From Clostridia bacterium (GTDB taxonomy: Bacteria > Bacillota > Clostridia > Oscillospirales > CAG-272), in NCBI GenBank assembly GCA_017628755.1, contig JAGBYM010000121.1, positions 1 to 38,755 on the forward strand: DNA of 38,755 nucleotides, in the 5' to 3' direction. The notes below the pieces were generated by a model. It searched no databases, had not been told where the DNA came from, and saw nothing but the letters and a program-made list of their open reading frames with translations. Position numbers and translations under genes: made by a program. This document shows positions 3,234-17,470 of the stretch, piece by piece. The first letter of the stretch is position 1. Every line of letters begins with the position of its first letter.

Positions 3234-3264
3234 CAAAGACGTAAAGTTTAGTCCACCTTTTGAA

Positions 3265-3283: not shown

Positions 3284-3291
3284 ACCACTCC

Positions 3292-3320: not shown

Positions 3321-3348
3321 CAAGCTATAAAATCTTTTGGAGTCTATC

Positions 3349-4023
3349 ATGGAAAAGCACGAACTTATTGAAGTATTCAAAGAAAACTTTCCCTTTTGGG
3401 AGCGTATGCCCGAGCACGACCGCGAGACATTTATGCGTTCATCACAGCACGTGAATTTCCGCAAGGGTGCAAACATCCATGACGGCGCGAGCTGTACGGG
3501 CGTAATCCTCGTCAAATCGGGAAGCCTGCGCCTCTATATCCTCTCTGAGGACGGCAAGGAGATCACTCTCTACCGCATCTTCCCCGGCGAAATGTGCATT
3601 CTTTCCGCTTCCTGCGTGCTCGAATCGATCACCTTTGACGTCTTTGTGGATTCCGAGGAAAACAGCGAATGCATAGTTGTCGGCGGCTGTGCCTACGAGG
3701 ATCTCGCAAGACGCATGCCCGAAGCAAAAATTTTCGCCCTCGAGAGCGCGCTCGGACGCTTTTCGGACGTCATGTGGGTAATGCAGCAGATACTTTTCAT
3801 GAGTATGGACAAGCGACTTGCCATATTCCTTCTTGACGAATGCTCAAAGAGCGGCTCGGATACCGTAAAACTGACACACGAGCAGATCGCCAAGTACATG
3901 GGATCTGCCCGTGAAGTAGTTTCTCGTATGCTTAAATATTTCGCCTCCGAGGGTATCATTTCATCCTCTCGAAGCGAGGGTATCAAAATTCTCGATAAAC
4001 GCCGTCTTCGCGCTTTAACTTGA
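3349..4023 (+). CDS. Crp/Fnr-family transcriptional regulator
   Basis: The protein has 224 residues. Residues ~10-120 form a cyclic-nucleotide-binding-like beta barrel (KSGSLRLYILSEDGKEITLYRIFPGEMCIL). A long dimerisation helix follows, then a winged helix at about 175-220 with recognition region THEQIAKYMGSAREVVSRML. There is no N-terminal four-cysteine cluster of the Fnr type and no clear cAMP-binding arginine pattern, so the effector is unknown; several scattered cysteines might allow redox sensing. ATG 3349 is chosen with GGAG 6 bases upstream; an in-frame TTG at 3337 lies inside that site. It is divergent from trxB, and trxA lies just downstream, convergent. Three neighbouring promoters carry a GTGA-N5-TCAC site at an activator position, so it probably activates thioredoxin and superoxide reductase genes (inference). 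Confidence 0.88.
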   Translation: MEKHELIEVFKENFPFWERMPEHDRETFMRSSQHVNFRKGANIHDGASCTGVILVKSGSLRLYILSEDGKEITLYRIFPGEMCILSASCVLESITFDVFVDSEENSECIVVGGCAYEDLARRMPEAKIFALESALGRFSDVMWVMQQILFMSMDKRLAIFLLDECSKSGSDTVKLTHEQIAKYMGSAREVVSRMLKYFASEGIISSSRSEGIKILDKRRLRALT

Positions 4024-4026
4024 CTC

Positions 4027-4057
4027 CAATCGTAAAACTGCGTTTTACAATTGTTTT
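4027..4057 (+). terminator. Terminator of the Crp/Fnr gene, made of a solo repeat hairpin
   Basis: The stem GTAAAAC/GTTTTAC, extended by AAT/ATT, is followed by a T-run on the plus strand. The hairpin is nearly the same as the terminal hairpin of the 147-nt repeats at 12857 and 34931, in reverse orientation, so a repeat appears to have been recruited as terminator. Confidence 0.65.
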
Positions 4058-4363
4058 TTAACCTAAAAGTGCAAGGATCTGCTCCTTCGGCCTTGCGCCC
4101 GAGGACTTATTGATGACCTCGCCATTTCTCATTACGACGAGCGTGGGAATGCTGAATACGCCGAATCTTTCTGCAAGCGCGGGTTCTTCGTCAACGTTGA
4201 CCTTGGCAACGACAATATCTTCTCTCTCGCCTGCGATCTCCTCCACTATGGGTGCCACCATACGGCAGGGTCCGCACCAATCCGCGTAGAAATCGAGGAG
4301 TATGGGCTTTTCGCTCTGAATTGCGGAATCGAAATTATCTTTACTCAGTTTAAGTGCTTTCAT
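4058..4363 (-). CDS. trxA: Thioredoxin
   Basis: A 101-residue single-domain thioredoxin with the canonical WCGPC redox site at about residues 29-33, preceded by LLDFYADW, and the cis-proline motif FSIPT further on. It is a cytoplasmic disulfide reductant normally recharged by thioredoxin reductase; the local reductase gene is interrupted by a stop. AAGGAG lies 8 bases before the ATG. The promoter at 4405-4445 has the same palindrome and spacing as those of trxB and superoxide reductase, so the three are probably one regulon. Confidence 0.95.
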   Translation of the reverse strand: MKALKLSKDNFDSAIQSEKPILLDFYADWCGPCRMVAPIVEEIAGEREDIVVAKVNVDEEPALAERFGVFSIPTLVVMRNGEVINKSSGARPKEQILALLG

Positions 4364-4404
4364 TTTTATATCTCCTTTTGAGGTGTTCTTGTTTTTACAC
4401 TCAT

Positions 4405-4445
4405 ATTATACCGCGTTTTTTGAGATAATTCCGTGATTTAGTCAC
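4405..4445 (-). promoter_or_regulatory. trxA promoter with GTGA-N5-TCAC operator
   Basis: On the minus strand GTGACTAAATCAC (4433-4445) is followed by exactly 22 bp and TATAAT (4405-4410). There is no consensus -35. It is the third copy of this promoter architecture within 2.3 kb. Confidence 0.7.
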
Positions 4446-4464
4446 CAAAAAGGATTATTATTTG

Positions 4465-5172
4465 CTATTTTACACATTTTTTGCAATAATACTCGCCTTT
4501 TTCAAGGTCGATACACGACGTATAAACCGTTTTCATCTTCTCGGTCGAGCCGCGTCCGAGCTCAACAAAAACGCTTTTCATAATATCAAAAAACTGCTCT
4601 GCGCTTTCGGCTGCGGGGCGTTTTTTTGCCTCAACTGCAAGAATAAAGCGTGATTCAGACAAAAAATCGGTCGGTTTTCTTCCTATTGTTATATTTTCCA
4701 AATGTTCGGGAAAAGTCGGTGCATTCGTCATAACTCCGATTTCGTTCCGATACACCCGCGAGCCCGCTTCGGTCTGCTCGAAAACTATGCATCCCGATGT
4801 GTCGGCAAATATCCAATGAAGCGGGGTGGGCGGCAGATCAGGCGCAAATGCATCGGGCGTGACGTTAACTTCTTCCAGAAGTTTTTCCGCTTCGTTAACA
4901 TTTTTGCACTTTTCAAGAACGAATCCGATCAGGTTATATGACGGAATATTGTATTTTTTCTCCGACTTATCAAGGTAAACGGCAAGTCCGGGGAAATTCA
5001 GTGCCGCGCCGCCAAGTCCGTATTTGTTTGCGGCGTCAAACCAGAGCGGTACGCCGTTCGCCATCCTTGCCATGCCGAATATGTCCGCAGTATTCACAAT
5101 CTCTCCGCCCCACTCGGTCTCGACGTCAAGAGTTCTCCCGAAAAACCTGCCCGAACTTATCGCAGTACACAT
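4465..5172 (-). CDS. Compact choloylglycine hydrolase-family (linear amide C-N hydrolase) protein
   Basis: Ntn-hydrolase of the bile salt hydrolase / penicillin V acylase family. ATG 5172 is chosen because it puts Cys at position 2, the nucleophile exposed after Met removal, and has AAGGAG upstream; ATG 5202 would bury it. The family's catalytic set is recognisable: Cys2, Arg13, Asp16 (RTLD), Asn59 (LNFPG), Asn150 (MTNAPTF) and Arg175 (SESRF). At 235 residues it is much shorter than bile salt hydrolases (about 315-330). The missing parts appear to be a loop after Asp16, about 40 residues between TFPEH and SRF, and the C-terminal tail. The substrate is therefore uncertain: bile salt, an acyl-homoserine-lactone-like amide, or another N-acyl amide. 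It ends in TAG, and reading through adds only eight residues. No signal peptide. Confidence 0.82.
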   Translation of the reverse strand: MCTAISSGRFFGRTLDVETEWGGEIVNTADIFGMARMANGVPLWFDAANKYGLGGAALNFPGLAVYLDKSEKKYNIPSYNLIGFVLEKCKNVNEAEKLLEEVNVTPDAFAPDLPPTPLHWIFADTSGCIVFEQTEAGSRVYRNEIGVMTNAPTFPEHLENITIGRKPTDFLSESRFILAVEAKKRPAAESAEQFFDIMKSVFVELGRGSTEKMKTVYTSCIDLEKGEYYCKKCVK

Positions 5173-5284
5173 TTTCTTCTCCTTAATTATATATAATTTC
5201 ATATCTAAAAATAAACCATTTTAGTTATTATTCACCGCAAATTCACCAAAAAATCAGACGAAACATTATATTAACAAATTCGAC

Positions 5285-5394: not shown

Positions 5395-6429
5395 ATGAAG
5401 AAGATTCTCGCACTCGCTCTCTGCCTTTGCATGGTACTCTGTGCAGTAGCATGTACCAAGGCACCCGCTGAAAAGGACTACAAGCTCGGTCTGGGCGTAG
5501 TAGTTAGCACCGCAAGCACCAGCGGCACCAACGCACAGGTAGATGCTACCATCGCTGCAGTTGTTACCGACGCTGATGGCAAGATCGTTCTCTGCCGCAT
5601 TGATGTAGCACAGAACAAGATGACCGTTGAGAACGGCACCGTAGACACCACCGCTACTTACAAGACCAAGATGGAAAAGGGTTCCGAGTACGGCATGGCT
5701 GGCAAGGTTGACAACAATGGCGACGGCGTTATGCTCGAGTGGGACGCTCAGGCTAAGGCTTTCGAGTCCTTCGTAGTAGGCAAGACCGGCGCTGAGGTTG
5801 CAGCTCTTGAGACCCAGGAAGCTGGCGGCCACCAGATCGCTGTTGACTCCGCTCTTCTCGAGGCTGGCTGCTCCATGCAGATCACCGATTTCATGGCTGC
5901 TGTTGAGAAGGCTTGCAACGACGAGCAGGCTATGAGCTTCAAGGCTGCTGAAGGTTCCTTCACTCTTGGCGTAGCTGCTAACACCGCTGCTGCAGATTCC
6001 AAGAACGTTGAAGGCGAAACCGCAGGTCTCGTAGCTATGTACTCCGACATCGCTGCATGTGTAGTTGCAGAAGGCAAGATCATCGCTGCTCTCAACGACG
6101 CTATCCAGCCCAAGATCACCGTTAACGTTGACGGCACTCTCGCTCCCCAGGAATTCAAGGGCACCAAGAGAGAGCTCAAGAGCGGCTACGGTATGGAAGG
6201 CAAAGTTGATAACAACGGCGACGGCGTTATGAAGGAATGGTTCGAGCAGTCCAAGGCATTCTCTGAGTATGCAGTTGGCAAGACCGCTGCTGATATCAAG
6301 GGCATGCAGACCACCGAGGCTAACGGTCATTTTATCACTGTTGACCAGGCTCTCCTCGATGCAGGTTGCTCCATCCAGATCACCGGTATCTGCGCAGTAG
6401 TTGCAGAGGCTGCAGAATACGCAAGATAA
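5395..6429 (+). CDS. Lipoprotein with duplicated FMN-binding-like domain, probable extracellular electron carrier
   Basis: The protein has 344 residues with a lipoprotein signal peptide ending in LCAVAC (lipidated Cys20), so it is anchored outside the cell membrane. Two homologous domains follow (about 30-178 and 188-344). Each has an EF-hand-like stretch (VDNNGDGVM, then EW), a VGKT segment, and near its end an AGCS motif (157-160 and 323-326) in the place where FMN_bind domains carry the [S/T]GA[T/S] flavinylation motif. Ser would be the acceptor residue; this is inference. It precedes the ApbE flavin transferase and the rnf genes, as flavinylated lipoproteins (PplA) do in extracellular electron-transfer loci. 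Codon choice is strongly biased (GCT, GTT, AAG, AAC), suggesting very high expression. AAGGAG and a short A-rich spacer precede ATG. Confidence 0.75.
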   Translation: MKKILALALCLCMVLCAVACTKAPAEKDYKLGLGVVVSTASTSGTNAQVDATIAAVVTDADGKIVLCRIDVAQNKMTVENGTVDTTATYKTKMEKGSEYGMAGKVDNNGDGVMLEWDAQAKAFESFVVGKTGAEVAALETQEAGGHQIAVDSALLEAGCSMQITDFMAAVEKACNDEQAMSFKAAEGSFTLGVAANTAAADSKNVEGETAGLVAMYSDIAACVVAEGKIIAALNDAIQPKITVNVDGTLAPQEFKGTKRELKSGYGMEGKVDNNGDGVMKEWFEQSKAFSEYAVGKTAADIKGMQTTEANGHFITVDQALLDAGCSIQITGICAVVAEAAEYAR

Positions 6430-6458
6430 TTAAATTTCACTAACAGGAGATAGGAATT

Positions 6459-7520
6459 GTGAAGATTCTTAAATCCCTTTCCTGTCTATGTCTGATTTGG
6501 GGGCTGCTCGTCTTTATGACGGGCTGCCCTCAAACTGCAGTTAAGACAGAAACGCCCGGCAAAGTATATTACACATTTTTTGACACCGTTTCCTATATTT
6601 ACAATTATGCGGGCGATTCCCAGGAAGCGTTTGACGAAAAAACTGCCGCTGCTGCAAGCATCCTTGAGGAATATCACCGCCTTTTTGACATTTATTATGA
6701 GCATTCAGGCGTAAACAACCTCTGCACGGTCAACAAAAATGCAGGCGGCGAGCCCATAGAAGTTGACCAAAAACTAATCGACTTTCTTCTTTATGCCAAG
6801 GAGCTTTATCTGCTCACCGGCGGCGAGATGAACGTCATGATGGGAGCAGTCCTCCGCCCCTGGCACGATTGCCGAACCGCGGCGAGCAATGATCCCGCCA
6901 ACGCCAAAATCCCCGACGCGGCAGTTCTCGAAGAAGCCGCAAAGCACACCTCTATCGATCTTCTTGAGATCGATGACGAAAATAACACAGTACGCATAAG
7001 CGACCCCGCGGCATCGATAGACGTCGGTGCACTCGGCAAAGGATACGCAACCGAAATGGCGGCGCAGTATCTTGAATCGATCGGCACAACCTCGTACGTC
7101 CTCAATATCGGCGGAAATATCCGTATAATCGGCACAAAGCCCGACGGAAGCGGATGGCTTACAGGAATTAAGAATCCTGCGGATGCCGGTTTCACCTATG
7201 CGGAATATATAACTTTGGCAGACACCTCGTGCGTCACCTCGGGAATCTATGAAAGATTCTACTCTGTCGGCGGCGTACAGTACCATCATATAATCGACAA
7301 AGATACCCTTATGCCCTCAACCTTCTTCCCGTCCATCTCGATCATCACCAAGGATTCGGGACTTGCCGATGCCCTCTCGACCGCTCTCTTCTGCATGAGC
7401 TATGAGGACGGCAAAGCAATCGTCGACAAGCTCGACGGCGTCGAAGTCCTCTGGATCACCCACGACGGAGAGAAGCTGATGACAGAAGGATTCAAATCTC
7501 TCGTTACCGAGAAGAATTGA
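6459..7520 (+). CDS. apbE: FAD:protein FMN transferase (ApbE family lipoprotein)
   Basis: ApbE enzymes transfer FMN from FAD to a Thr or Ser of extracytoplasmic proteins. The protein has 353 residues, a GTG start 8 bases after AGGAGA, and a lipoprotein signal with Cys at about residue 23 (VFMTGC). Family motifs are present: the D-V-G-A-L-G-K-G-Y-A stretch near residue 190, IGGNIRIIG, and the metal/flavin site YHHIIDKDT near 280. It lies 29 bp after the lipoprotein and before rnfC. Its likely targets are RnfG (two sites), RnfD (one site) and possibly the preceding lipoprotein. No terminator separates it from the lipoprotein gene; a 202-bp spacer with tandem hairpins separates it from rnfC. Confidence 0.93.
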   Translation: MKILKSLSCLCLIWGLLVFMTGCPQTAVKTETPGKVYYTFFDTVSYIYNYAGDSQEAFDEKTAAAASILEEYHRLFDIYYEHSGVNNLCTVNKNAGGEPIEVDQKLIDFLLYAKELYLLTGGEMNVMMGAVLRPWHDCRTAASNDPANAKIPDAAVLEEAAKHTSIDLLEIDDENNTVRISDPAASIDVGALGKGYATEMAAQYLESIGTTSYVLNIGGNIRIIGTKPDGSGWLTGIKNPADAGFTYAEYITLADTSCVTSGIYERFYSVGGVQYHHIIDKDTLMPSTFFPSISIITKDSGLADALSTALFCMSYEDGKAIVDKLDGVEVLWITHDGEKLMTEGFKSLVTEKN

Positions 7521-7554
7521 GTTGCTAGTTATTAGTTGCTAGTTGCTAGTTAAA

Positions 7555-7583
7555 GGTAAATTTTCGCAGAAGCGAAAATTACC
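7555..7583. repeat. Short dispersed hairpin (copy 1)
   Basis: An inverted repeat GGTAA-TTTTCGC / GCGAAAA-TTACC preceded by several TTGCTAGT repeats. A similar sequence with the same CTAGT preface is found at 33254-33291, upstream of the UlaG-like gene. It lies between apbE and rnfC. Confidence 0.5.
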
Positions 7584-7593
7584 TATTAAAAAA

Positions 7594-7681
7594 CATTCCG
7601 CCGAAGGCGGATAACCATTCTTGCGAAGCAAGATAACCATTCTCGCAAAGCGAGATAACCATTCCGCCGAAGGCGGATAAA
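7594..7681. repeat. Tandem array of four 22-nt hairpin units with covarying stems
   Basis: CATTC recurs at 7594, 7616, 7638 and 7660, a strict 22-nt period. Each unit holds a small hairpin: TCCGCC/GGCGGA, TCTTGC/GCAAGA, TCTCGC/GCGAGA and again TCCGCC/GGCGGA, with a GAA or AAA loop, joined by a constant ATAAC. Stem bases differ between units but pairing is always kept. The array sits in the 202-bp gap between apbE and rnfC and might act as an mRNA processing or stability element, or as a partial terminator. Confidence 0.75.
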
Positions 7682-7722
7682 ATCGTAAAAAATTTTTATA
7701 ATTATTATACAGGAGGAGTGCT

Positions 7723-9072
7723 ATGATTTTCAAAAAAGATATCTCATCCCTGCACGTACCGCATAACAAGAATACTGCGGGATGCGAGCCAGTGAAAATT
7801 CAGACACCCAAGGAAGTTATCCTGCCCATGAACATGCATTCGGGCGGCGAGGCAGAGCCCATCGTCACCGTAGGCGAGCACGTTTACGTAGGACAGCTTA
7901 TCGCACGAGAGGAAGGAAGATTCTCTTCCCCCGTACACGCAACCGTATCCGGCACTGTTGCCGAAATCCTCACCCTCCCCACCGCACGCGGTAAAGAGGT
8001 CAAAGCCATCCGCATTGATAGCGACGGCAAGATGGAAGCAGATCCCAACATGAAGGCTCCCGTATTCGAGGGCTGCGACGGCTTCCTTCAGGCAGTACGC
8101 GAGAGCGGCGTTGTAGGTCTCGGAGGCGCGGCTTTCCCGACATGGGCAAAGCTCAACGAGGCAACCAACCCCGACTACAAGGTTGACACCGTCCTCATCA
8201 ACGCGGCTGAATGCGAACCCTACATCACATCCGACCACAGAATGATGCTCGCGCACGCCGACCTCATCGACGACGGCATCGAGTATATGCGCAAGTATAT
8301 GAGCGAGTATCTTGGAGATGCTACATATAAGATCTGCATCGAAAAGAACAAGCCCGACGCAATCAAGGTTCTCAAGGAAAAATTCGCGGACAAGCCCTAC
8401 GTGGTCATCCACGAGCTCAACGCTATCTATCCTCAGGGCGCAAAGCAGGTTATGCTCTACAACGCAACCGGCAGAGTTGCAATTGCAGGCAAGCGTTTCC
8501 CCTCCTTCGGCGCACTCATCATCAACGTTTCCACCCTTGCGAAGACTGCTGAATACCTCAACACCGGTATGCCCCTTGTTGAGCGTATCGTAACCGTTGA
8601 CGGTCCCGCAGTTAAGAAGCCCGGCAACTTTATCGCTCCCATCGGAACCTCGATCCGCACACTTCTCGAGCTTACCGAGACCGATCTCGAAAAGGTCGGC
8701 AAGGTTGTTATCGGCGGTCCCATGAACGGTAACGCAACCGTTTCGGTTGACTCCCCCATCGTCAAGGTATCCAACTGCATTCTTGCCTTTGACGAAAAGA
8801 GAGCTACTCTCCCCGAGCCCTCCGCATGCATCCGTTGCGGAAGATGTATGGAGAAGTGCCCCGTTGATATCAACATCGGCGCGGTTGAAAGCGCTATGAA
8901 GATCAAGAACGATGAAAAGAAGGAAGCGGCTCTCATCGACACAGGCGTTCGCCAGTGCGTTGACTGCGGATGCTGTTCCTATGTTTGCCCCGCACACCGT
9001 CCTCTTCTCGCAACCAACCAGGATGCTAAATGGTGGCTCAAGCAGTATGAGCGCTCCAAGCAGTCCAGATAA
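7723..9072 (+). CDS. rnfC: Electron transport complex subunit RnfC
   Basis: Peripheral cytoplasmic subunit that carries the NADH/FMN site and two [4Fe-4S] clusters. The protein has 449 residues, the normal length. The N-terminal part has the biotin-carboxyl-carrier-like segment (HSGGEAEPIVTVGEHVYVGQ). The nucleotide-binding glycine-rich motif GVVGLGGAAFPTWAKL and INAAECEPY follow. Near the C-terminus are two ferredoxin motifs, CIRCGRCMEKCP and CVDCGCCSYVCP. AGGAGG precedes ATG 7723. It is the first gene of an rnfCDGEA run with overlapping or near-overlapping junctions. With no RnfB present, RnfC is the only visible cytoplasmic electron entry point of this complex (inference). Confidence 0.95.
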   Translation: MIFKKDISSLHVPHNKNTAGCEPVKIQTPKEVILPMNMHSGGEAEPIVTVGEHVYVGQLIAREEGRFSSPVHATVSGTVAEILTLPTARGKEVKAIRIDSDGKMEADPNMKAPVFEGCDGFLQAVRESGVVGLGGAAFPTWAKLNEATNPDYKVDTVLINAAECEPYITSDHRMMLAHADLIDDGIEYMRKYMSEYLGDATYKICIEKNKPDAIKVLKEKFADKPYVVIHELNAIYPQGAKQVMLYNATGRVAIAGKRFPSFGALIINVSTLAKTAEYLNTGMPLVERIVTVDGPAVKKPGNFIAPIGTSIRTLLELTETDLEKVGKVVIGGPMNGNATVSVDSPIVKVSNCILAFDEKRATLPEPSACIRCGRCMEKCPVDINIGAVESAMKIKNDEKKEAALIDTGVRQCVDCGCCSYVCPAHRPLLATNQDAKWWLKQYERSKQSR

Positions 9073-9085
9073 GGAGGTAATGGTA

Positions 9086-10057
9086 ATGAAAAAGCTTTCA
9101 CTTACAGCCGCACCTCATATTAACAGCGGCGTATCGACCCACAACATCATGCTTGACGTTGTCATTGCCATGATTCCCGCATCCATCGCCGCAATTGTCC
9201 TCTTCGGACTCAAGGCACTTTGGATCATCCTCACCTGCGTTGTAAGCGCAGTTGCAGCAGAATTTATCTTCAACCTTTGCGTAAAGAAGAAGCAGACAGT
9301 CGGCGATTTCTCCGCTACCGTAACAGGTCTCCTTCTCGCGCTCAACCTCTCGACAAACGTTGAGCTCTGGCAGGCTGCACTCGGTTCTGTCTTTGCCATC
9401 GTAGTAGTCAAGGGGCTCTTCGGCGGTCTTGGCAAGAACATTGTAAACCCCGCTATCGCGGCTCGTGTACTTATGCTTCTCACCTTCGCATCGGTAGCAG
9501 GCGGCGCGGCGATCGCTCCCCTCTTCGATCTCTCCTTCCTCGGCAATGCCGTTCCCGAGATCGCAGCGGGCGCAACTCCCCTCTCCTTCCTCAATGAAGG
9601 CGCAGAGGCGGCTGCAAGCGCTCCCTCTGTTCTCCAGCTCCTTGTCGGTGCACACGGCGGTACCATCGGTGAGACCTGCGCGATCGCGCTCGTTCTCGGC
9701 TTTGTTTACCTCGTTTGCCGCAAGGTTATCAAGTGGTACATCCCCGTTTCCTTCATCGCAACCGTTTTCGTTTGCTACCTCATCGCAGGCGGCTTTGACG
9801 TAACCTTTGCTCTTCAGCACGTTCTCGCCGGTGGCGTATTCCTCGGTGCTATCTTCATGGCTACCGACTACGTAACCACCCCCGCAACAAACAAGGGACG
9901 CGTTGTATTCTGCATCGGCGCGGGTCTTCTCACCTTCGCGATCCGCTTCTGGGGCTCCTATCCCGAGGGCGTTTCGATCGCTATTCTCACCATGAACCTC
10001 CTCGTTCCCTTCATCAATGATTGGACGAAGAAAAAGCCTTTGGGAGGTATCAAATAA
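9086..10057 (+). CDS. rnfD: Electron transport complex subunit RnfD (NqrB-like)
   Basis: Integral membrane subunit with covalent FMN. The protein has 323 residues and many hydrophobic segments. It has the family motifs FGGLGKNIVNPAIAAR and, at 161-164, AGAT followed by PL, the flavinylation site with Thr164 as acceptor (the usual form is SGATP). The conserved MATDYVTTP segment is present. ATG 9086 is preferred over ATG 9080 because it lies 8 bases after AAGGAGG. It starts 14 bp after rnfC and its TAA overlaps the ATG of rnfG. Confidence 0.93.
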   Translation: MKKLSLTAAPHINSGVSTHNIMLDVVIAMIPASIAAIVLFGLKALWIILTCVVSAVAAEFIFNLCVKKKQTVGDFSATVTGLLLALNLSTNVELWQAALGSVFAIVVVKGLFGGLGKNIVNPAIAARVLMLLTFASVAGGAAIAPLFDLSFLGNAVPEIAAGATPLSFLNEGAEAAASAPSVLQLLVGAHGGTIGETCAIALVLGFVYLVCRKVIKWYIPVSFIATVFVCYLIAGGFDVTFALQHVLAGGVFLGAIFMATDYVTTPATNKGRVVFCIGAGLLTFAIRFWGSYPEGVSIAILTMNLLVPFINDWTKKKPLGGIK

Positions 10058-11295
10058 TGAATATCAAGCATCTTCTCAAAACTATCGCGATCCTTCTCTG
10101 CATCGTTGCAGTTTTCGGCGTCGCAATGTTCGGACTCAACTTCCTCACCGGCCCCATCATCGAGGCTAACAACAAGGGCGCGGAGTTCGCTCCCCTTCTC
10201 GCAGTTATGCCCGAGGCTGAGAACTTCGAGGACGTAACCGCTACTCTCGCGGGCGTTCCTGAGTCGGTTATCGCAATCTACAAGGAAACCACCGGCAAGG
10301 GCTACGTTGTCCGCGCTAAGGCTTCCACTCAGTACTCCAAGGAGCCCATGGAGATCACCTTCGGCGTAACCGCTGACGGTAAGATCTGCGGAATTCAGCT
10401 CGACGTCTACACCGACTCGATCGACTTCCGCGCAAAGGACGCAAACTACATCTCCTCCTACGTTGAGAAGGATTCCGCCCTTGCCGACATCGGCACCGTT
10501 TCGGGCGCGACCTACTCCTCCTCCGCATTCAAGACCGCGGTTTCCGACGGTTTCTCGGCTCTTATTTCCAATCAGCTTATCGCAGAGGGCGTTAAGAGCG
10601 ATGCTCAGATCCTTCAGGAGATGATCCCCACTCTCGCTCCCGGTATGCTCAAGCTTGAAGAAGCAACCGCCTCCGGCAATATCGAAAAGGCACTCAAGGC
10701 AGGCAACGATGCGGGATTCGCTTACGTTATCAAGAACGGTGAGGCTTCCTTCCTCGCACTCGTTAACGCTTCGGGCATATGCAAGGTTTACGATGTTGCA
10801 GGCGCCGACGTTACCGATGCTCAGTCCGCTCTCGCAGACGAGGCAAAGGCACACGCCGCTGCTTCTCAGAAGTCCTACGCAGAGGATCTCAACACCAAGA
10901 TCACCAGACTCTTCGCAGACGCTTCCGAGATCACCGCTCTCGAGCTTAACACCTTCAACACAGTTGTTGCGGGCGTGTCCTTCAAGTCGAACGGCGCGGA
11001 TTATTATGGCTTCTACTCCAGAAGCTACGGCTACAATCAGATGGACGTTTACGTTATCCTTGACGCAAACGGAGCAATCGCAAATCTTGATGCCAAGGCA
11101 TTCTTCTTCGATGAGGAATACTTCCACGTTGACGATACCGTTAACCTTACCGATTACAAGAACGGTTTTGCAGGTCAGACAGAAGCCGGCGACAACGCTA
11201 TGATCGCAGGAGCAACAATGACCTCGAACGCTGTCAAACAGGCAACTGCCGACACTTTTGCTACCTTTAACGCTATCAAGGGAGGTGCACAGTAA
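10057..11295 (+). CDS. rnfG: RnfG-like subunit with two FMN-binding domains
   Basis: Single-pass membrane protein whose extracellular part carries covalent FMN. One membrane segment (about 8-33) is followed by an FMN_bind domain with the motif SGATYSS (acceptor Thr152). After a linker rich in Ala and Glu comes a second, divergent FMN-binding-like domain ending in AGATMTSNAV (acceptor Thr387). Ordinary RnfG is about 180-220 residues with one site; this one is 412 residues with two, so the second half looks like a domain gain. ATG 10057 overlaps the rnfD stop and has GGGAGG upstream; a TTG 36 bases earlier is unlikely. It ends overlapping the rnfE ATG. The extra flavin would extend the electron wire outward (inference). 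Confidence 0.9.
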   Translation: MNIKHLLKTIAILLCIVAVFGVAMFGLNFLTGPIIEANNKGAEFAPLLAVMPEAENFEDVTATLAGVPESVIAIYKETTGKGYVVRAKASTQYSKEPMEITFGVTADGKICGIQLDVYTDSIDFRAKDANYISSYVEKDSALADIGTVSGATYSSSAFKTAVSDGFSALISNQLIAEGVKSDAQILQEMIPTLAPGMLKLEEATASGNIEKALKAGNDAGFAYVIKNGEASFLALVNASGICKVYDVAGADVTDAQSALADEAKAHAAASQKSYAEDLNTKITRLFADASEITALELNTFNTVVAGVSFKSNGADYYGFYSRSYGYNQMDVYVILDANGAIANLDAKAFFFDEEYFHVDDTVNLTDYKNGFAGQTEAGDNAMIAGATMTSNAVKQATADTFATFNAIKGGAQ

Positions 11296-11906
11296 TGAAA
11301 AATTTCTTTAAGGCGTGTCTCCTCCGCGGAACACCCTCTATGGTTCTCGCACTCGGCGCGGGATTCGTAATGGCATCCAGCGCAGACATACGCGCGGCAC
11401 TCGGTATGGGCGCGGCTGTTCTCATCTCGATGCTCCTTACCTCGATCGTAGTTTCCGCGATCCACAAATTCATCCCCGCTTACGCAAAGCTTCCCGTTTA
11501 TCTTCTGATCATCACCGGCTTCGTTTCGATCATCGAAATGGTTATGGAAGCCTTCTTCCCCATCGTTGTCGATATGCTCGGCGCACACCTTGCAGCCCTT
11601 GCTGTAAGCGCAGTCATCTACCGCGATGCCGAAGAAATTGCAGACCACAGCGGCGAGTGGACCTCGATCAAAGCTGCACTCACAACAGGTATTTTCCTTA
11701 CCGTTATTATGGTAATCTGCGCTCTCATCCGCGAGACCCTCGGTAACGCAACCCTTTGGGGTCGTGAGATCGCATTCCTTGCAAACTACAAGGTAACCGC
11801 TCTTGCGGGCGCATTCGGCGCGTATCTTGTTCTCGCTTGCGTACTTGCCGCAATCAAAAAGCTCACCGGAGCTGAAGAACATCTTGAAGGGGAGGAACAC
11901 GAATAA
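11295..11906 (+). CDS. rnfE: RnfE-like membrane subunit lacking cluster cysteines
   Basis: The protein has 203 residues, six hydrophobic segments and the typical RnfE/NqrD layout (LPVYLLIITGFVSIIEM, SAVIYRDAEEIA, LIRETLGNATLWG). Family members have a Cys in 'GLCP' of helix 1 and in 'TNC' of helix 4, which with RnfA bind a [2Fe-2S] cluster within the membrane. Here the aligned residues are LGAGF (about 20-24, Gly for Cys) and VSA (about 104-106, Ala for Cys). The Cys at residue 8 does not align. It is translationally coupled to rnfG and rnfA. The fold and operon position are secure, but the electron-transfer function of this subunit is doubtful. Confidence 0.88.
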   Translation: MKNFFKACLLRGTPSMVLALGAGFVMASSADIRAALGMGAAVLISMLLTSIVVSAIHKFIPAYAKLPVYLLIITGFVSIIEMVMEAFFPIVVDMLGAHLAALAVSAVIYRDAEEIADHSGEWTSIKAALTTGIFLTVIMVICALIRETLGNATLWGREIAFLANYKVTALAGAFGAYLVLACVLAAIKKLTGAEEHLEGEEHE

Positions 11907-12472
11907 TGCTTACTGTTGAAATGATCCTTGGCATTCTTCTTGCCGGACTTCTCTCCGACAACTATGCGCTTCTCCACTTCCTTGGAACCGGCGCGGTTAT
12001 GGAAAACGAGCGTTCGACCAAGCAGTCAGTCGTTCTCGGTCTCGGCACTACACTCGTAATGCTCATCACCAACGCAATCTGCTGGCCTCTCAACACCTAC
12101 CTTCTCGAGAAGGTTCCCTACCTGCAGACAATGATATTCGTACTCGTTGTCCTCATCGTAGTTGAAGTTCTCCACATCATCGCAAAGAAGGTTCTCGATA
12201 ACTACTGCCACGCGGACTTCGTTAAGTTTGCTATCAACGGCGCAGTTCTCGGCCTCTGCATCCACAATGTAGAGCACCACCTCTCCTACGTCGAGACTCT
12301 CGTCACCTCCCTTGGTGTTGGTCTCGGACTTATGGTTACGATGTGCGTCTTCGCAAAGATCAAGGGTGAACCCGTTGATGAGGAAGCGATTCCCGCATCC
12401 TTCCGCGGACTTCCCATCGCGCTTCTTACCGCAGGTATGATCGCACTCGCGCTTCTCGCGCTCAACTTCTAA
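11906..12472 (+). CDS. rnfA: RnfA-like membrane subunit lacking cluster cysteines
   Basis: The protein has 188 residues and six hydrophobic segments, as in RnfA/NqrE. Family RnfA has FLGLCP and TNCAVLG. The aligned segments here are FLGTGA (Gly29 for Cys) and INGAVLGLC (Gly112 for Cys; a different Cys lies six residues later). The C-terminal end ASFRGLPIALLTAGMIALA matches the family's PFRGNAIALITAG. So both cysteines that hold the membrane [2Fe-2S] cluster are missing, as in the partner RnfE. GGGGAGG precedes the ATG, which overlaps the rnfE stop. The next gene in most rnf operons, rnfB, is absent; a NusG-II-domain gene follows instead. Confidence 0.88.
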   Translation: MLTVEMILGILLAGLLSDNYALLHFLGTGAVMENERSTKQSVVLGLGTTLVMLITNAICWPLNTYLLEKVPYLQTMIFVLVVLIVVEVLHIIAKKVLDNYCHADFVKFAINGAVLGLCIHNVEHHLSYVETLVTSLGVGLGLMVTMCVFAKIKGEPVDEEAIPASFRGLPIALLTAGMIALALLALNF

Positions 12473-12822
12473 TGAAAAAAAGAGATATAATTCTCATTGC
12501 ATCAATACTGATCGTCGCCGCCGCGCTCTTTCTTGTTGTCGAACTGACCAAGAAGGACGGCGCGGGCGTCGTCGTCAAGGTTGACGGCAAAGAGGTTGCG
12601 CAATATTCTCTTTCCGAGAATGCGACCTACGAGCTCAACGGCGGCACGAACATCCTTGTTATCGAAGATGGCAAGGCATATCTGAGCGATGCAAATTGCC
12701 CCGACAAACTCTGCGTTCATCAGGGCAAGATATCAAGAACAGGCGAGGTCATAACCTGCCTGCCCAACAAACTGACCGTCACCGTTTTCGGTGCACAGGA
12801 AAGTATAGATCTGGTTAGTTAA
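12472..12822 (+). CDS. NusG domain II-containing membrane-anchored protein (EetA-like)
   Basis: The protein has 116 residues: an N-terminal membrane anchor (about 6-26), then a small beta domain with the family's signature DANCPDKLCVHQG and ITCLPNKLTV, including three conserved cysteines (NCPDKLC and TCLPN). As I recall, proteins of this type occur in flavin-based extracellular electron-transfer loci next to a Gx-transporter protein (EetA and EetB). Here the two are also neighbours, separated by a 147-nt repeat element. The ATG overlaps the TAA of rnfA, so it belongs to the rnf operon. Its biochemical role is not known to me. Confidence 0.8.
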   Translation: MKKRDIILIASILIVAAALFLVVELTKKDGAGVVVKVDGKEVAQYSLSENATYELNGGTNILVIEDGKAYLSDANCPDKLCVHQGKISRTGEVITCLPNKLTVTVFGAQESIDLVS

Positions 12823-12856
12823 TAACAGATTGAAAAATCCCCAATTATAATATAAT

Positions 12857-13003
12857 CTGTTTTTTTGGCGGCTTTGCCGACCAAAAAAACACCTTTTAGG
12901 CGAGCAAAGCGAGCCCGCGCGCCGAGGGGAGCTGTCAAAACCGAAGGTTTTGACAAGCGGCGATAAGCGCGCGTATCAATTGTAAAACGTAGTTTTACAA
13001 TTG
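12857..13003 (+). repeat. 147-nt multi-hairpin dispersed repeat, copy A
   Basis: It aligns without gaps with 34931-35077 (same strand), about 84% identical by hand count. Four inverted repeats follow one another: a GC hairpin flanked by T7/A7; GGCGAGC/GCGAGCC with tandem GA mismatches; TGTCAAAACC/GGTTTTGACA; and CAATTGTAAAAC/GTTTTACAATTG. Differences from copy B fall mostly in loops or as paired changes. It lies between the NusG-II gene and the Gx-transporter gene. Confidence 0.8.
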
Positions 13004-13039
13004 GTTGAATTAGTTAAAACAAAATGAAAGGACAGTATT

Positions 13040-13534
13040 ATGAAAACGAAAAAAGTCGCGTTTCTTTCAATGTGTATTGCGCTTTCAATGATACTGTCCT
13101 ATTTTGAAAGCCTGATACCTCCGCTTGTCGCCGTCCCCGGCGTCAAGGTGGGTCTTCCGAACCTTGTTATGGTCTTTATGCTCTACAAGATCGGGCCCTT
13201 TGAGACCGCAACGGTCAGCATTATCCGAGTAATTCTCGTCGGTATGCTTTTCGGCTCGCCGCTTTCGATGATCTACTCGCTTGCGGGCGCGGCGCTCAGC
13301 CTTCTCGGTATGATATTGCTTAAGAAGACCGGACTTTTCGCTCCCATCACGGTAAGCGTTGCGGGCGGAATCCTCCACAACATCGGTCAGATCGTCACAG
13401 CCTGCATAGTCATGAGCACATCGCAGATAGCCTACTATCTGCCCGTCCTCCTGATCACAGGCACGGTCGCGGGTGTCATCATCGGCTACGTCGCAGGTCT
13501 GATACTCAAGAGACTTGATAAAATGAAATTATAA
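13040..13534 (+). CDS. Gx transporter family membrane protein (EetB-like)
   Basis: The protein has 164 residues and about five membrane helices, with the family features VPGVKVGLPNLVMVF and RVILVGMLFGSPLS. The family is often annotated 'heptaprenyl diphosphate synthase component I' and resembles ECF-transporter substrate-binding subunits. As I recall, one of its members is EetB of extracellular electron-transfer loci. Its place at the end of the lipoprotein-apbE-rnf cluster supports that role. AAAGGA lies 9 bases before the ATG. A strong terminator follows at 13533, which closes the cluster. Confidence 0.82.
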   Translation: MKTKKVAFLSMCIALSMILSYFESLIPPLVAVPGVKVGLPNLVMVFMLYKIGPFETATVSIIRVILVGMLFGSPLSMIYSLAGAALSLLGMILLKKTGLFAPITVSVAGGILHNIGQIVTACIVMSTSQIAYYLPVLLITGTVAGVIIGYVAGLILKRLDKMKL

Positions 13535-13569: not shown

Positions 13570-13598
13570 TTGCAGTCGAATAAACTTTATGATATAAT
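13570..13598 (+). promoter_or_regulatory. Promoter of the PETT-repeat lipoprotein gene
   Basis: TTGCAG, a 17-bp spacer and TATAAT, about 20 bp upstream of the start codon, directly after the preceding terminator. Confidence 0.7.
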
Positions 13599-13617
13599 AT
13601 ATTGTGAGGTGAATCCT

Positions 13618-14622
13618 ATGAAATACAAACGCCAAAAAAACGCCATATTGCTTCTGGCGGCTCTCATGATAATCTGCATCGGATGCACATCCGGCGAATT
13701 TGAAATTACCGTCGGAACGGATTCTGAGCAGAAAATAACCGAGGAAGCGGTGGTAAATTTCGACACAACAACACTTCCGGATACTACAGTATCGCCAGAC
13801 ACCTCGGTACTACCGGATACTACAGTAGTTCCCGAAACTACTGCTACTCCCGAAACCACTTTAATTCCCGAAACCACTTTAATTCCCGAAACCACTTTAA
13901 TTCCCGAAACCACTTTAGTTCCCGAAACCACTTTAGTTCCCGAAACCACTTTAGTTCCCGAAACTACTGCTACTCCCGAAACCGGAGAACCCGAAAAACT
14001 CCATTCCGAATTATACATTCCGGGACTTACTGCAGATAATGCGACCAAATTCTTCTCCGAGGTCTGCCTTGACGCGGAATATATCAATACGGGCGACCCA
14101 AGCCGAGTGCAAAAATGGATCGTGCCGATCTATTATAAGCTGCTCGGTACGCCAACCGACAAGGATATTGCGGTCGTTGAAGACATGGCAAAGCAACTGA
14201 ACGCCATTGAAGGCTTCCCCGGGATGTATCCCGCAAGCAATAGCTACTCGGCAAACCTTCGCATTCATTTCTGCAAGCCGCAGGAATTTTCATCGATCAT
14301 AGGCGTTTCGTATGAGGGAAACGACGGTGTTATCACCTTCTGGTATATGGATGATCAAATATACGATGCCGTGATCTGCATACGGAATGACATAGATCAG
14401 GAGCTTCGCAACTCGGTTATAATGGAGGAAATATATAATGGCCTCGGACCTATTCAGGACACAAAGCTCAGAGAGGACAGTATAATCTTCACGGGTTTCT
14501 CGGCTCCGCAAGCTATGACGAATACCGACCTTCTCATACTGCGCCTGCTCTATCATCCGTCAATCAAATGCGGAATGAACGCGGAAAAATGTGCAAAAAT
14601 TATATCGGAATTATATTATTGA
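13618..14622 (+). CDS. Lipoprotein with Pro-Glu-Thr-Thr repeats and DUF2927-like domain
   Basis: The protein has 334 residues. The lipobox ICIGC puts the lipid on about Cys24. Residues ~45-125 are a low-complexity stalk of PETTLI/PETTLV units encoded by an 18-bp tandem repeat. The rest is a globular domain of about 200 residues. Its end (ELRNSVIMEEIYNGLGP, then LREDSIIFTG, then LRLLYHPSIKCGMN) resembles DUF2927, a domain of unknown function seen in secreted proteins. No catalytic motif is obvious. ATG 13618 with GAGGTG upstream is chosen; the longer open frame (from 13570) would start inside the promoter. It has its own promoter and terminator, so it is a single-gene unit. Confidence 0.75.
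   Translation: MKYKRQKNAILLLAALMIICIGCTSGEFEITVGTDSEQKITEEAVVNFDTTTLPDTTVSPDTSVLPDTTVVPETTATPETTLIPETTLIPETTLIPETTLVPETTLVPETTLVPETTATPETGEPEKLHSELYIPGLTADNATKFFSEVCLDAEYINTGDPSRVQKWIVPIYYKLLGTPTDKDIAVVEDMAKQLNAIEGFPGMYPASNSYSANLRIHFCKPQEFSSIIGVSYEGNDGVITFWYMDDQIYDAVICIRNDIDQELRNSVIMEEIYNGLGPIQDTKLREDSIIFTGFSAPQAMTNTDLLILRLLYHPSIKCGMNAEKCAKIISELYY
13831..13992 (+). repeat. 18-bp in-frame tandem repeat (nine units)
   Basis: CCCGAAAC starts at 13831 and recurs every 18 bp up to 13975, encoding hexapeptides PETTxx. Several neighbouring units are identical, so unit number is likely to vary by slippage or recombination while keeping the frame. Confidence 0.9.
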
Positions 14623-14666
14623 TGATATTTTAATCACTTTCGGTAATTATTTTTATTGAAAGTCAG

Positions 14667-14708
14667 CATATCAAAAGAACTCCCGTTTTCGGGAGTTCTT
14701 TTGATATG
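14667..14708. terminator. Bidirectional terminator between convergent genes
   Basis: A perfect 19-bp stem with a TTTT loop lies between the stop codons of two convergent genes; the outer arms are A/T rich and serve as the T-tail in both directions. Confidence 0.8.
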
Positions 14709-14726
14709 CATTACACCTTTACTTAA

Positions 14727-15521
14727 TTATTTCAAAACAAACTTACTGATAAACTGTCTTGTAAACTCAACGCCTGCCGCGCCGAGCTCGCCCTGCCAGG
14801 TCTTGGAGTGGGGCTCGATACTCAGATCTCCGTCATAGCCTCTTGCATAAAGGATGGAGAATATGCTTCCCCAGCGCAGATCGTCCATTCCTGCAGGGGG
14901 ATCGGAAACCGCGCGACTTCCTGCGTGGGTTGTGCCCTTAACGTGGAAGTGCGCGATCTTCTCGCCGTAATCAGACATTTCAGCAAGATAATCAGCGTGT
15001 CTGTTATACGCGTGAGAAGGGTCGTATTTCAGCCAGAGATCGGGATTTTCGCCAAGGATGACCTTCCATTGCTCGGGGGAATCAATAAAGTTGTTCCAAT
15101 GGCAGTTCTGAATAGCGATCTTTATACCGCTTCCGCTTGCCTTTGCTCTCTCGGTAAGCTGACCGAGGAAGTCAAGCGCAACGGTGTAGTTTCTATAAAG
15201 CGAAACCTCATCCGCATAGTTGCATCCGCAAACAAAGGTCTTTGCGCCAAGCTCGATAGCCGCGTCAAGCTGTGCAAAATACACGTTCAGTCTGTCCGCG
15301 TCGATCTTACCGCCAACGTTGATATCGTGATTCCAGCGTCCGATGCAAGAAACATCAATACCCGTGCGCGCGATCTCCGCCTTGATGTTTTCCTTGTTTG
15401 CGATCAGCTTTTCAGCATCAGCCTGATTGTTACAACAGATCTCAATGAACTCGAGATTCGTATTCTTAACGAGATCAAAGCCCGCCGCGGTATAATTATT
15501 TTGTATTCTTCCTATTCTCAT
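14727..15521 (-). CDS. Sugar phosphate isomerase/epimerase-like TIM-barrel protein
   Basis: A protein of 264 residues of the xylose-isomerase-like TIM barrel family (AP endonuclease 2 superfamily). Typical segments are EFIEICC (strand 1), KTFVCGCNY, IQNCHWN, LKYDPSHAY and IAHFHVKGT, with metal-binding-type acidic and histidine residues (Glu after EFI, His in DPSHA, His in HFHVKG, and Glu in SIEPH near the end). It probably interconverts a keto/aldo sugar or a related polyol; the substrate cannot be read from sequence. It has its own TTGACA-N17-TACAAT promoter and a downstream terminator. No signal peptide. Confidence 0.85.
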   Translation of the reverse strand: MRIGRIQNNYTAAGFDLVKNTNLEFIEICCNNQADAEKLIANKENIKAEIARTGIDVSCIGRWNHDINVGGKIDADRLNVYFAQLDAAIELGAKTFVCGCNYADEVSLYRNYTVALDFLGQLTERAKASGSGIKIAIQNCHWNNFIDSPEQWKVILGENPDLWLKYDPSHAYNRHADYLAEMSDYGEKIAHFHVKGTTHAGSRAVSDPPAGMDDLRWGSIFSILYARGYDGDLSIEPHSKTWQGELGAAGVEFTRQFISKFVLK

Positions 15522-15553
15522 ATCGGTAACCTTCCTTATATAAGTTTGAATTT

Positions 15554-15582
15554 ATTGTACCACATATTCTGGAATTTGTCAA
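15554..15582 (-). promoter_or_regulatory. Promoter of the sugar isomerase-like gene
   Basis: On the minus strand TTGACA, a 17-bp spacer and TACAAT, 32 bp before the start codon. Confidence 0.8.
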
Positions 15583-15587
15583 TAAGC

Positions 15588-15619
15588 AAATCGGCAGAGA
15601 AAAAATTCTCTGCCGATTT
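15588..15619 (-). terminator. Terminator of the SGNH surface protein gene
   Basis: A 13-bp stem (AAATCGGCAGAGA/TCTCTGCCGATTT) with a 6-nt loop, just after the SGNH gene stop. The minus-strand T-tail is weak (TTTGCTTATT). Confidence 0.65.
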
Positions 15620-15634
15620 TATAAGTAAAATTAA

Positions 15635-17470
15635 TTAGTCTTTCTTCTTGAATACGATTGCAGTACCGAGAAGTGCGATAACTGCAACTGCGCCTGCGAT
15701 CATACCGCCGCATCCCTTCTCTACGGGAGGTTCTTCGGTGATAGGATCGGTAGCGGGTGCTTCGGTAACTGCGGGAGCTTCGGTTGTTACAACGGGATCC
15801 ACGTGTTTGGTTGTCTCAGGTTCCTGAGTCTCGGGAGCGACGGTGACCTCGGGCTCTACGGGAGCGGTCATACCCGCCTCAAGTGCGTCGAGAATATAAG
15901 GAGTGATGATCTCGTAACCTGCCGCATTGAGGTGGAGAGTATCGGGAAGATACTTGGTAGTGGTGGTCTCGAGCTTATCGTTGAGCTCCTTGTTGTTGTA
16001 AAGGTCGATGAAGATGATACCGTACTTCTCACAAAGCTCTTTTGCCTTATCGAAATAGGGGCCCATATTCTTCGCGTTACCCGTGGTGTGGCCGTCAAGA
16101 TGATGGTTTGCGATAAAGAAGAGCTTCGCGTTGGGCTGAGACAGCTTTACGTTGTGGAAGAGCCACTGCAGACCACCGATGTATGTGGTCTTTGCCTTGT
16201 CAAGCGCAGCCAGATCCTCGGATTCCAGGATCTTACCGATCTGTCTGTTATGTCTCGCGTCATTTACACCGCCGTGCATAACAATGATATCGAACTGCTG
16301 GTTCTTGTTTTCGTCGAACTGTGTGTAGAGCCACTTTGCCTTATCGTCGGCATTCATAAAGCTTGCCTTTGCACCGCTGACGGATGCATTGGTAACGATC
16401 GCGCCGGTACGGTCGGCAATTCTGCCTGCCCATGCTCTGCCGGTACGGAAGGGAGATGCGGAGTCGCCCGAGCCGTAGCTGATCGAGTCGCCCATGAAGA
16501 GCATCTTCTTGCCATAGAGGGGGCTGCCTTCGGGAGCCTGACCGGGAAGAGTGATATTGAACTTCTTCATATAATCAGCGGCGGTGAAGGGCTGGTTGAT
16601 GGTTGCAAGCTCGATACCGTCATCGTAAACGCCGGTAGCCGCAACAACACGTACGTAACCCGTACCGGGACGCATTCTGTATGCGAAAACTGTGAATCCG
16701 TTGCCGATTGCATCGTACTGAACCATATAATCGATCTGAACGGTAGTAGTACCATTGCCGTTCTTATCAAGAAGAACAAGGTGGTAACCCTGGTCGATAG
16801 CAGCGGCGCCAAAGTAAATAACGTCGCCTTCCTTTACGGGAACAGCGGGGCAGGTGCGGTATGCAGCAGCTGCGATCTCGGCGTTAGTCTTATCAACGCG
16901 GCCTTCGTATACCTGATCCGACACGGGGAAAATGTTTACAAGCTCGCCCGATGCAGTGGTGGGACGGAGAAGATCAACGTTGATTCCCGCCTTGTCCATA
17001 GTTGCGAAGTAATCAGCCGTCTTGAAGGTCTGGTTTACTGTGATCATGGTGCACTCAGCGTAAAGCTGTGAGGTAGCCATTCTGATGGATGCGCTTCCCT
17101 CGGGAACGGTCCACTGAACGATCTCGGTACCAGTAACAATGGTATCAACCTTTTTGCAGTCAGCATACTTGACCTGAGAGATCTTGCGGTTGCCGTCAGC
17201 ATCATATGTGGTGAGGAAGTAACCCTGCTTGATCTGAACGGGACCGAAGGTGATCACGTCGCCCGCCTTGACCTCAATGAGGCCTGAGCAATAGTAGTTT
17301 TCGTTGTAAGAAGGACTTCCTGCAGCCGTAGTAGGGCAAGTTCCGCACGAAGCCTTGGAGGGATCGTAGAGATTGACAAACTCTGCCGCGCCTGCCATAA
17401 ACGTCATCATGGGGATGAGCATTGCAAGCATAAGCATAAGACAGATCTGTTTTGTGAAAAGCTTTTTCAT
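15635..17470 (-). CDS. Cell-surface SGNH-hydrolase with two N-terminal beta-sandwich repeats and C-terminal anchor
   Basis: The protein has 611 residues. A signal peptide (1-29, ending AGAAEF) is followed by two homologous domains (about 32-160 and 178-300) with the shared pattern EVKAGDVITFGP, then QGYxLxxxDxxG, then the RMxxxTxYVRV-like strand. Next is an SGNH hydrolase domain (about 322-530) with blocks GDSISYG (Ser329), GGVND (Asn403) and DTLHLN (Asp510, His513). Then come a Thr/Pro/Glu-rich stalk (about 535-580), GCGG, a membrane helix and KKKD. It probably removes acyl groups from a polysaccharide at the cell surface. ATG 17470 has AAGGAG 6 bases upstream. The next gene upstream is a paralogue without the esterase domain. 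Confidence 0.87.
   Translation of the reverse strand: MKKLFTKQICLMLMLAMLIPMMTFMAGAAEFVNLYDPSKASCGTCPTTAAGSPSYNENYYCSGLIEVKAGDVITFGPVQIKQGYFLTTYDADGNRKISQVKYADCKKVDTIVTGTEIVQWTVPEGSASIRMATSQLYAECTMITVNQTFKTADYFATMDKAGINVDLLRPTTASGELVNIFPVSDQVYEGRVDKTNAEIAAAAYRTCPAVPVKEGDVIYFGAAAIDQGYHLVLLDKNGNGTTTVQIDYMVQYDAIGNGFTVFAYRMRPGTGYVRVVAATGVYDDGIELATINQPFTAADYMKKFNITLPGQAPEGSPLYGKKMLFMGDSISYGSGDSASPFRTGRAWAGRIADRTGAIVTNASVSGAKASFMNADDKAKWLYTQFDENKNQQFDIIVMHGGVNDARHNRQIGKILESEDLAALDKAKTTYIGGLQWLFHNVKLSQPNAKLFFIANHHLDGHTTGNAKNMGPYFDKAKELCEKYGIIFIDLYNNKELNDKLETTTTKYLPDTLHLNAAGYEIITPYILDALEAGMTAPVEPEVTVAPETQEPETTKHVDPVVTTEAPAVTEAPATDPITEEPPVEKGCGGMIAGAVAVIALLGTAIVFKKKD

Follow-up and report, generated by a model that had tools for sequence, protein, structure and literature searches.

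An rnfB-less Rnf-type complex of gut Clostridia, devoid of the RnfA/RnfE [2Fe-2S] ligands, as a candidate conduit for extracellular electron transfer

Rnf is usually viewed as a six-subunit ion pump operating between ferredoxin and NAD. Here, we describe an Rnf-type operon carried on a 38,755-nucleotide stretch of DNA from a Clostridia bacterium (GenBank assembly GCA_017628755.1, contig JAGBYM010000121.1; hereafter the window), in which rnfB is missing and RnfA and RnfE have lost all four cysteines that bind the buried [2Fe-2S] cluster. Both losses were confirmed by profile searches and alignment. We consider it likely that this duplicated and remodelled Rnf serves extracellular electron transfer (EET) as an NADH dehydrogenase working in one direction, and that its own operon supplies no quinone step. 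A broader scenario, towards which we lean only slightly, is that Rnf has, at least twice within one Clostridia order, been reduced to a single arm serving flavin-based EET as an NADH dehydrogenase independent of quinones, in one case with RnfA and RnfE kept free of cofactors and in the other with RnfA, RnfE and RnfB all lost. Under this scenario, the only Rnf found in five gut genomes would be an outward conduit, and its RnfA/RnfE pair a natural pump unit without a redox centre.

Results

Organization of the operon

The window lies on contig C144; the assembly, 2.43 Mb in size, is 72.7% complete. Nine consecutive genes on the + strand (5395-13534), hereafter the module, were identified with the help of Pfam and NCBIfam searches (FMN, flavin mononucleotide; FAD, flavin adenine dinucleotide):

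5395..6429, +, PplA-like lipoprotein; two tandem domains of ~150 residues, with a conserved AGC[S/T] site in each
6459..7520, +, ApbE, FAD:protein FMN transferase, in the position of FmnB (PF02424, E 9e-61)
7723..9072, +, RnfC, carrying an NADH/FMN domain and a pair of [4Fe-4S] sites (TIGR01945, 371 bits, above cut-off)
9086..10057, +, RnfD, with Thr164 for covalent FMN and N121 and D261 at the riboflavin site (TIGR01946, 287 bits, above cut-off)
10057..11295, +, RnfG; two FMN-binding domains, Thr152 and Thr387 (PF04205)
11295..11906, +, RnfE, with G23 and A106 in place of the cluster ligands (PF02508)
11906..12472, +, RnfA, with G29 and G112 in place of the cluster ligands (PF02508)
12472..12822, +, membrane protein with NusG domain II, in the position of EetA and in the place of rnfB (PF07009, synteny)
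13040..13534, +, EetB-type substrate-binding subunit of an energy-coupling factor transporter, predicted to export FAD (PF07456)

RnfG, RnfE and RnfA score below the NCBIfam cut-offs for Rnf subunits. The RnfD residues Thr164, N121 and D261 align with T156, N123 and D249 of Acetobacterium woodii, respectively. An earlier sequence-only reading of the window had delimited the unit at 7723..12472, with the order rnfC-D-G-E-A followed by a NusG-II gene where rnfB would be expected. The identity and order of these genes were borne out by the family searches, but the functional unit is wider, extending from 5395 to 13534. The stop codon of rnfA overlaps the start codon of the following gene (TAATG), so that there is neither space for rnfB nor an assembly gap between the two genes. 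The ApbE of the module is the sole ApbE found in the (72.7% complete) genome, and a single ApbE is likewise present in 20 of the 22 module-bearing genomes, lying on the module's contig in 17 of those 20.

Loss of the [2Fe-2S] ligands in RnfA and RnfE

In A. woodii, the buried [2Fe-2S] cluster is ligated by RnfA C25 and C113 and RnfE C25 and C108 (PMC11889175). When these positions are mapped by phmmer against the solved A. woodii Rnf (9eri), the window carries G29 and G112 in RnfA and G23 and A106 in RnfE. The alignment thus upholds the Gly/Gly and Gly/Ala assignments of the sequence-only reading and does not restore the cysteines. The same residues occur throughout the window and 21 related loci (see below): RnfA G29 and G112 and RnfE A106 are found in 22/22, and RnfE G23 in 21/21 readable sequences, with one row truncated. 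In a wider tally of 92 rows for each subunit, references included, there are no intermediates: RnfA rows are either Cys/Cys (69) or Gly/Gly (23), and RnfE rows either Cys/Cys (70) or Gly/Ala (22), with no mixed case in either. For this tally, in which a few rows are duplicated, copies identical over residues 6-170 (RnfA) were counted once and matches aligned over fewer than 120 residues were excluded.

Some of the residues tied to Na+ passage in A. woodii (PMC11889175) are replaced in the modules, namely RnfE L103 (by Ala, Thr or Cys), RnfA T110 (by Ala), RnfA E88 (by His in 21/22) and, when read ungapped, RnfA L108 (by Lys). RnfE V106 is retained, E115 is mostly retained and R67 is Lys in 17/21, and RnfA Cys101, Glu33, Glu35, Arg36 and Lys107 are invariant (22/22). 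The invariant RnfA residues, the retention of RnfE V106 and largely of E115, and the purifying selection described below would fit a complex in which RnfA and RnfE house a different cofactor or ion path and which is still coupled to ions. We nevertheless regard such coupling as distinctly unlikely, given the replacement of RnfE L103 and RnfA T110, E88 and L108, and given that loci consisting of rnfC, rnfD and rnfG only (see below) manage without RnfA and RnfE.

RnfB and the second Rnf of the genome

No rnfB is present in the operon of the window or of any of the 21 related loci. The claim of an Rnf without rnfB, however, holds for the operon and not for the genome: an rnfB lies on contig C83, in a cluster rnfD-G-E-A-B with no adjacent rnfC, beside RnfA and RnfE that contain all four cysteines. 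This gene belongs with the canonical RnfA/RnfE, and the genome-wide search thus brought up no cognate rnfB for the module. A genome-wide Pfam search similarly located an RnfB-type domain next to a second RnfA/RnfE pair in 16 of the 21 other module genomes. The module could therefore be imagined to borrow RnfB, or RnfA/RnfE, from the canonical complex and to function as an ordinary Rnf; as C83 has no adjacent rnfC, RnfC could also be shared between the two. We consider borrowing very improbable. Five module genomes, all of ruminant origin (L047, L048, L049, L053 and L055), have no RnfB and no Cys-type RnfA/RnfE above the Pfam cut-offs (one of them has an extra PF02508 match, at 19.5 bits, below the cut-off), and two of the five are matched to genomes listed as 90% and 98% complete, implying that the module is independent of an RnfB. 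Moreover, in A. woodii the passage of electrons requires the RnfA/RnfE cluster (PMC11889175).

Two observations concern the other Rnf genes of the window's genome. The second FMN domain of RnfG shows 70% identity between the canonical Rnf of the genome (L005, 14125-15333) and the Cys-less module (window, 10057-11295), and 60-62% identity when compared to canonical RnfG from three close relatives, which suggests domain sharing between the canonical and Cys-less complexes. In addition, a divergent rnfC-rnfD pair on contig C21 (L095, 3651-5943 and 7753-9276, - strand) represents a third Rnf piece; the 12 kb fetched around it showed no further rnf gene. Nearby is a gene for an AcsV/RamA-like corrinoid reductive activator, and the pair may supply low-potential electrons to corrinoid activation.

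Conservation and selection

The cofactor sites of the remaining subunits are preserved. In RnfC, GLGGAAFPTWAK and nine C-terminal cysteines (369 to 422) are invariant (19/19). RnfD retains N121 and D261 in 21/21 sequences and Thr164 in 19 of the 20 readable ones, with Ser in L056 and a deletion in L063, and RnfG retains Thr152 and Thr387 in 20/20 each. Divergence was compared between 18 modules and 6 canonical clusters of the same family. The median identity among canonical proteins versus that between module and canonical proteins is 39 versus 37 for RnfC and 50 versus 46 for RnfD, but 49 versus 29 for RnfE and 56 versus 28 for RnfA; among modules, the medians are 75 (RnfC), 74 (RnfD), 72 (RnfE) and 67 (RnfA). 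To judge by these identities, divergence is restricted to the lost arm, RnfA and RnfE.

Among the window, L044, L045 and L046, the ratio of nonsynonymous to synonymous substitution rates (dN/dS) ranges from 0.037 to 0.112 in rnfA and from 0.058 to 0.119 in rnfE, similar to rnfC and rnfD. Such strong purifying selection indicates that rnfA and rnfE are not decaying. A decaying paralogue or an assembly artefact might be suspected from L048, in which rnfD is split between two frames, and from L063, which is devoid of rnfC and rnfG. The chance of this is negligible, since the 21 loci come from separate assemblies and share fixed residues, 17 of them have the nine genes in order, and dN/dS is ~0.04-0.12 in both rnfA and rnfE; selection and conservation together rule it out.

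Distribution and origin of the module

Relatives were sought in 84,980 species, each represented by one genome, using the alignment of Cys-less RnfA as the query. The scan yielded 21 loci, all from metagenome-assembled genomes whose titles read Clostridia, Oscillospiraceae or Acutalibacter; the colon, caecum or rectum of ruminants is named in 16 titles and no site in the other five. All nine genes occur in the window's order at 17 of the 21 loci, including L048. Contig ends truncate L044, L051 and L062, and L063 consists of rnfD-E-A and the two following genes only. It was also sought in samples of the family, the order and the class: an RnfA more than 60% identical to that of the window was found in three of 146 genomes of the family (the window included), the next being 37% identical; RnfE exceeded 360 bits in five of 394 genomes of the order, the next scoring 144 bits; and among 391 genomes of the class the sole outstanding match was that of the window itself. 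The Cys-less module is a rare, clear-cut lineage.

Several loci have irregularities of their own. In L048 (6143-7155), rnfD extends across two open frames owing to a frameshift or a sequencing error. In L063 (2120-4962; Acutalibacter), rnfD-E-A, the NusG-II gene and eetB follow a gene for a permease resembling those of ATP-binding cassette transporters, and RnfD lacks the covalent-FMN motif, a sign either of decay or of D-E-A being put to a still more reduced use. The RnfA matches in G511, G516, G518 and G519 contain one internal stop each, taken as the match overrunning the natural stop.

In the RnfD tree, the modules form one clade (support of 100 in the Shimodaira-Hasegawa-like approximate likelihood ratio test, SH-aLRT), whose neighbours are canonical RnfD of the same order, the C83 copy and that of L233 among them (support 93). 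Cys-less sequences also form one clade each, on long branches, in the RnfA and RnfE trees. L233 has the gene order of the window, but with rnfB between rnfA and the NusG-II gene and with all four cysteines, making L233 and the window a before-and-after pair.

Gene company of the module

The lipoprotein (5395-6429) matches no Pfam family. A profile search for it across the 394 genomes of the order gave 40 positive genomes; neighbourhoods were fetched for 35 of these, and the five with modules were taken as known. The lipoprotein gene lies beside ndh2 and/or dmk in 7 genomes (ndh2 itself in 5), a complete Rnf with rnfB in 12, rnfC-D-G only in 5, the Cys-less module in 5, apbE only in 6 and none of the genes sought in 5. 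The ndh2 and/or dmk setting represents the flavin-based export locus. All four cysteines are present in 12/12 of the complete Rnf clusters. Family searches back the ndh2-like, dmkB and dmkA labels in L228 (dmkA below the NCBIfam cut-off) and the ndh2-like label in L231. Comparisons of the flavin site of the lipoprotein gave weak support in some cases and none in others, making it a candidate site only.

The five CDG-only operons (L227, L230, L236, L243 and L246) are located beside the lipoprotein gene and apbE and retain the RnfC, RnfD and RnfG motifs in 5/5, with no match to RnfE, RnfA or RnfB in the stretches fetched. One of the genomes, 99% complete, has no PF02508 gene, and the other four hold a separate RnfA/RnfE pair. 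In a tree built from a short search, CDG-only RnfD form their own clade (support 99), apart from that of the window, suggesting that Rnf was reduced to one arm twice.

The NusG_II protein encoded in the place of RnfB is presumably EetA. PF07456 corresponds to EetB, shown to be the FAD-export subunit in Listeria, where no export phenotype was seen upon loss of EetA; in the same source, 572 genomes of Clostridia are reported to have eetB adjoining Rnf genes (PMC9973259). Associations of cad with apbE are said to occur only in genomes free of rnf (PMC7074142), a rule that the loci described here contradict, if their lipoprotein belongs to the same family.

Genes for two subunits (NF004862 and TIGR01316, above cut-off), which we take to be NfnAB, adjoin the module in 11 of the 21 loci, including those of all five rnfB-less genomes, and were not found beside the module of the window. 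NfnAB would turn NADPH into NADH for RnfC.

Discussion

Collectively, these results allow a path for the electrons to be proposed. In the canonical complex, electrons are described as passing from ferredoxin through RnfB, the RnfA/RnfE cluster, RnfG, RnfD and RnfC to NAD+; in A. woodii, removal of the cluster abolishes ferredoxin:NAD activity, and Na+ transport is proposed to be powered by the reduction of this cluster (PMC11889175). Once the ferredoxin arm, that is RnfB and the RnfA/RnfE [2Fe-2S] cluster, is gone, there is no entry for ferredoxin and no known drive for Na+ pumping, leaving RnfC-RnfD-RnfG as a single path between NADH and the outside. If the complex is active, NADH would be oxidised at the FMN of RnfC, and electrons would proceed via the two [4Fe-4S] clusters of RnfC and the riboflavin and covalent FMN of RnfD, crossing the membrane to reach the pair of covalent FMNs in RnfG. 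From there, the co-encoded PplA-like flavolipoprotein could deliver them to an outside acceptor, for which iron and flavin or quinone shuttles are candidates. EetB would export FAD, and ApbE would attach FMN to RnfD, RnfG and probably the lipoprotein. RnfA and RnfE may have been retained around RnfG and RnfD, either as a scaffold free of cofactors or for some new role, and the complex probably performs no redox-driven ion pumping. Outward flow is the simplest reading because a lipoprotein of an export family, a FAD exporter and an FMN transferase share the operon. The view of the sequence-only reading, with NADH entering at RnfC and electrons leaving through the flavins, is thus supported by the flanking lipoprotein, ApbE and EetB, and also by the kept cofactor sites, the CDG-only loci and the five rnfB-less genomes.

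The direction could in principle be the opposite, with an outside reductant feeding the lipoprotein and RnfG, and RnfC making NADH. With NADH at a potential of about -320 mV, however, outward flow would be downhill and need no ion drive, and the RnfA/RnfE cluster, which is the drive unit known from Rnf, is gone; the gene company, moreover, is that of export loci. Although the exergonic direction of canonical Rnf is from RnfD to RnfC and the complex is reversible (PMC11889175), we therefore judge an inward chain to be rather improbable.

Alternatively, the same outward chain might end in an extracytosolic reductase or an envelope maintenance enzyme fed by RnfG and the lipoprotein. Many extracytosolic reductases are reported to be served by flavinylated proteins (PMC8238504), and no acceptor gene tied to the module was found at the loci, which leaves room for such an enzyme. 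Nevertheless, this ending appears unlikely: the lipoprotein family occurs in ndh2/dmk/eetAB loci, and the five rnfB-less genomes showed no reductase carrying an FMN_bind domain of its own, the RnfG of the module being their only Pfam FMN_bind match, in a search that misses some RnfG (G513, G514, G515 and G517 hold both complexes and yet give one match each).

The proposed EET dehydrogenase bears a resemblance to several known systems. As in the Rnf of A. woodii and C. tetanomorphum, RnfC, D, G, E and A are homologous and follow the order of the canonical clusters fetched, and the NADH/FMN, [4Fe-4S], riboflavin and covalent-FMN sites of RnfC, RnfD and RnfG are kept; in contrast, RnfB is absent, and the four [2Fe-2S] ligands and several ion-path residues are replaced. 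The second FMN domain of RnfG is common to some canonical clusters. With the flavin-based EET locus of Listeria (ndh2-dmkAB-eetAB-pplA-fmnB, as described in PMC9973259 and PMC10608574), the module shares ApbE, an EetB-type exporter, a NusG_II protein and a lipoprotein whose family occurs in ndh2/dmk loci, but in the window and the 17 complete loci rnfC-D-G-E-A stands where Ndh2 and the genes for demethylmenaquinone would be, a comparison made within the loci and not genome-wide. Multi-flavinylated RNF, with more than one FMN domain in RnfG, has been proposed to offer a second path to outside acceptors; those complexes carry rnfB, by which RNF was defined in that large survey (PMC8238504), whereas the outside path of the module would be its sole one. 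Two-subunit NQR/RNF-like systems (PMC8238504; modelled in PMC11334425) are likewise proposed to form a single, one-way path from NAD(P)H to the outside through an NqrB/RnfD-type protein. As described there, their RnfD is fused to an NqrF-like NAD domain (PF00175), whereas the module has a separate RnfC, retains RnfE and RnfA, and encodes an unfused RnfD (P0002) for which PF03116 is the sole match. The CDG-only loci share with the module the C-D-G arm, the lipoprotein family and apbE, and differ from it in having no RnfE, RnfA or RnfB match and in their RnfD clade. Finally, the module is not a Na+-NQR, as RnfC (P0001) scores 371 bits with the rnfC model versus 43, 23 and 20 bits with NqrA models, and no NqrF-like gene is present among the nine proteins of 5395-13534. 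The module thus unites the working halves of Rnf and of the flavin-based export locus, while departing from Rnf in two defining features and from the export locus in one. No description of an RnfB-less, cluster-less Rnf was found among the literature matches listed, which do not extend to subscription papers, so that absence in print is unproven.

If the proposed function is correct, automatic annotation would assign an energy-conserving Rnf where gut bacteria have a pumpless electron exporter, and the ATP yields and the disposal of hydrogen or NADH predicted for the ruminant gut would change. A complex that evolved without the RnfA/RnfE cluster would also be a natural test of how the cluster couples electron flow to Na+ movement. 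More generally, the association suggests that the PplA/ApbE/EetAB electron-export cassette can run on different NADH dehydrogenases.

The module is bordered by genes of other kinds. Upstream (window, 2254-5202) are thioredoxin-reductase-like, Crp/Fnr-type regulator, thioredoxin-like and choloylglycine-hydrolase-like genes. Following eetB is a frame resembling a secreted lipoprotein, with PETT-type repeats in tandem (13570-14622), and secreted proteins farther along (window, 13570-18757) recur near the module in close relatives.

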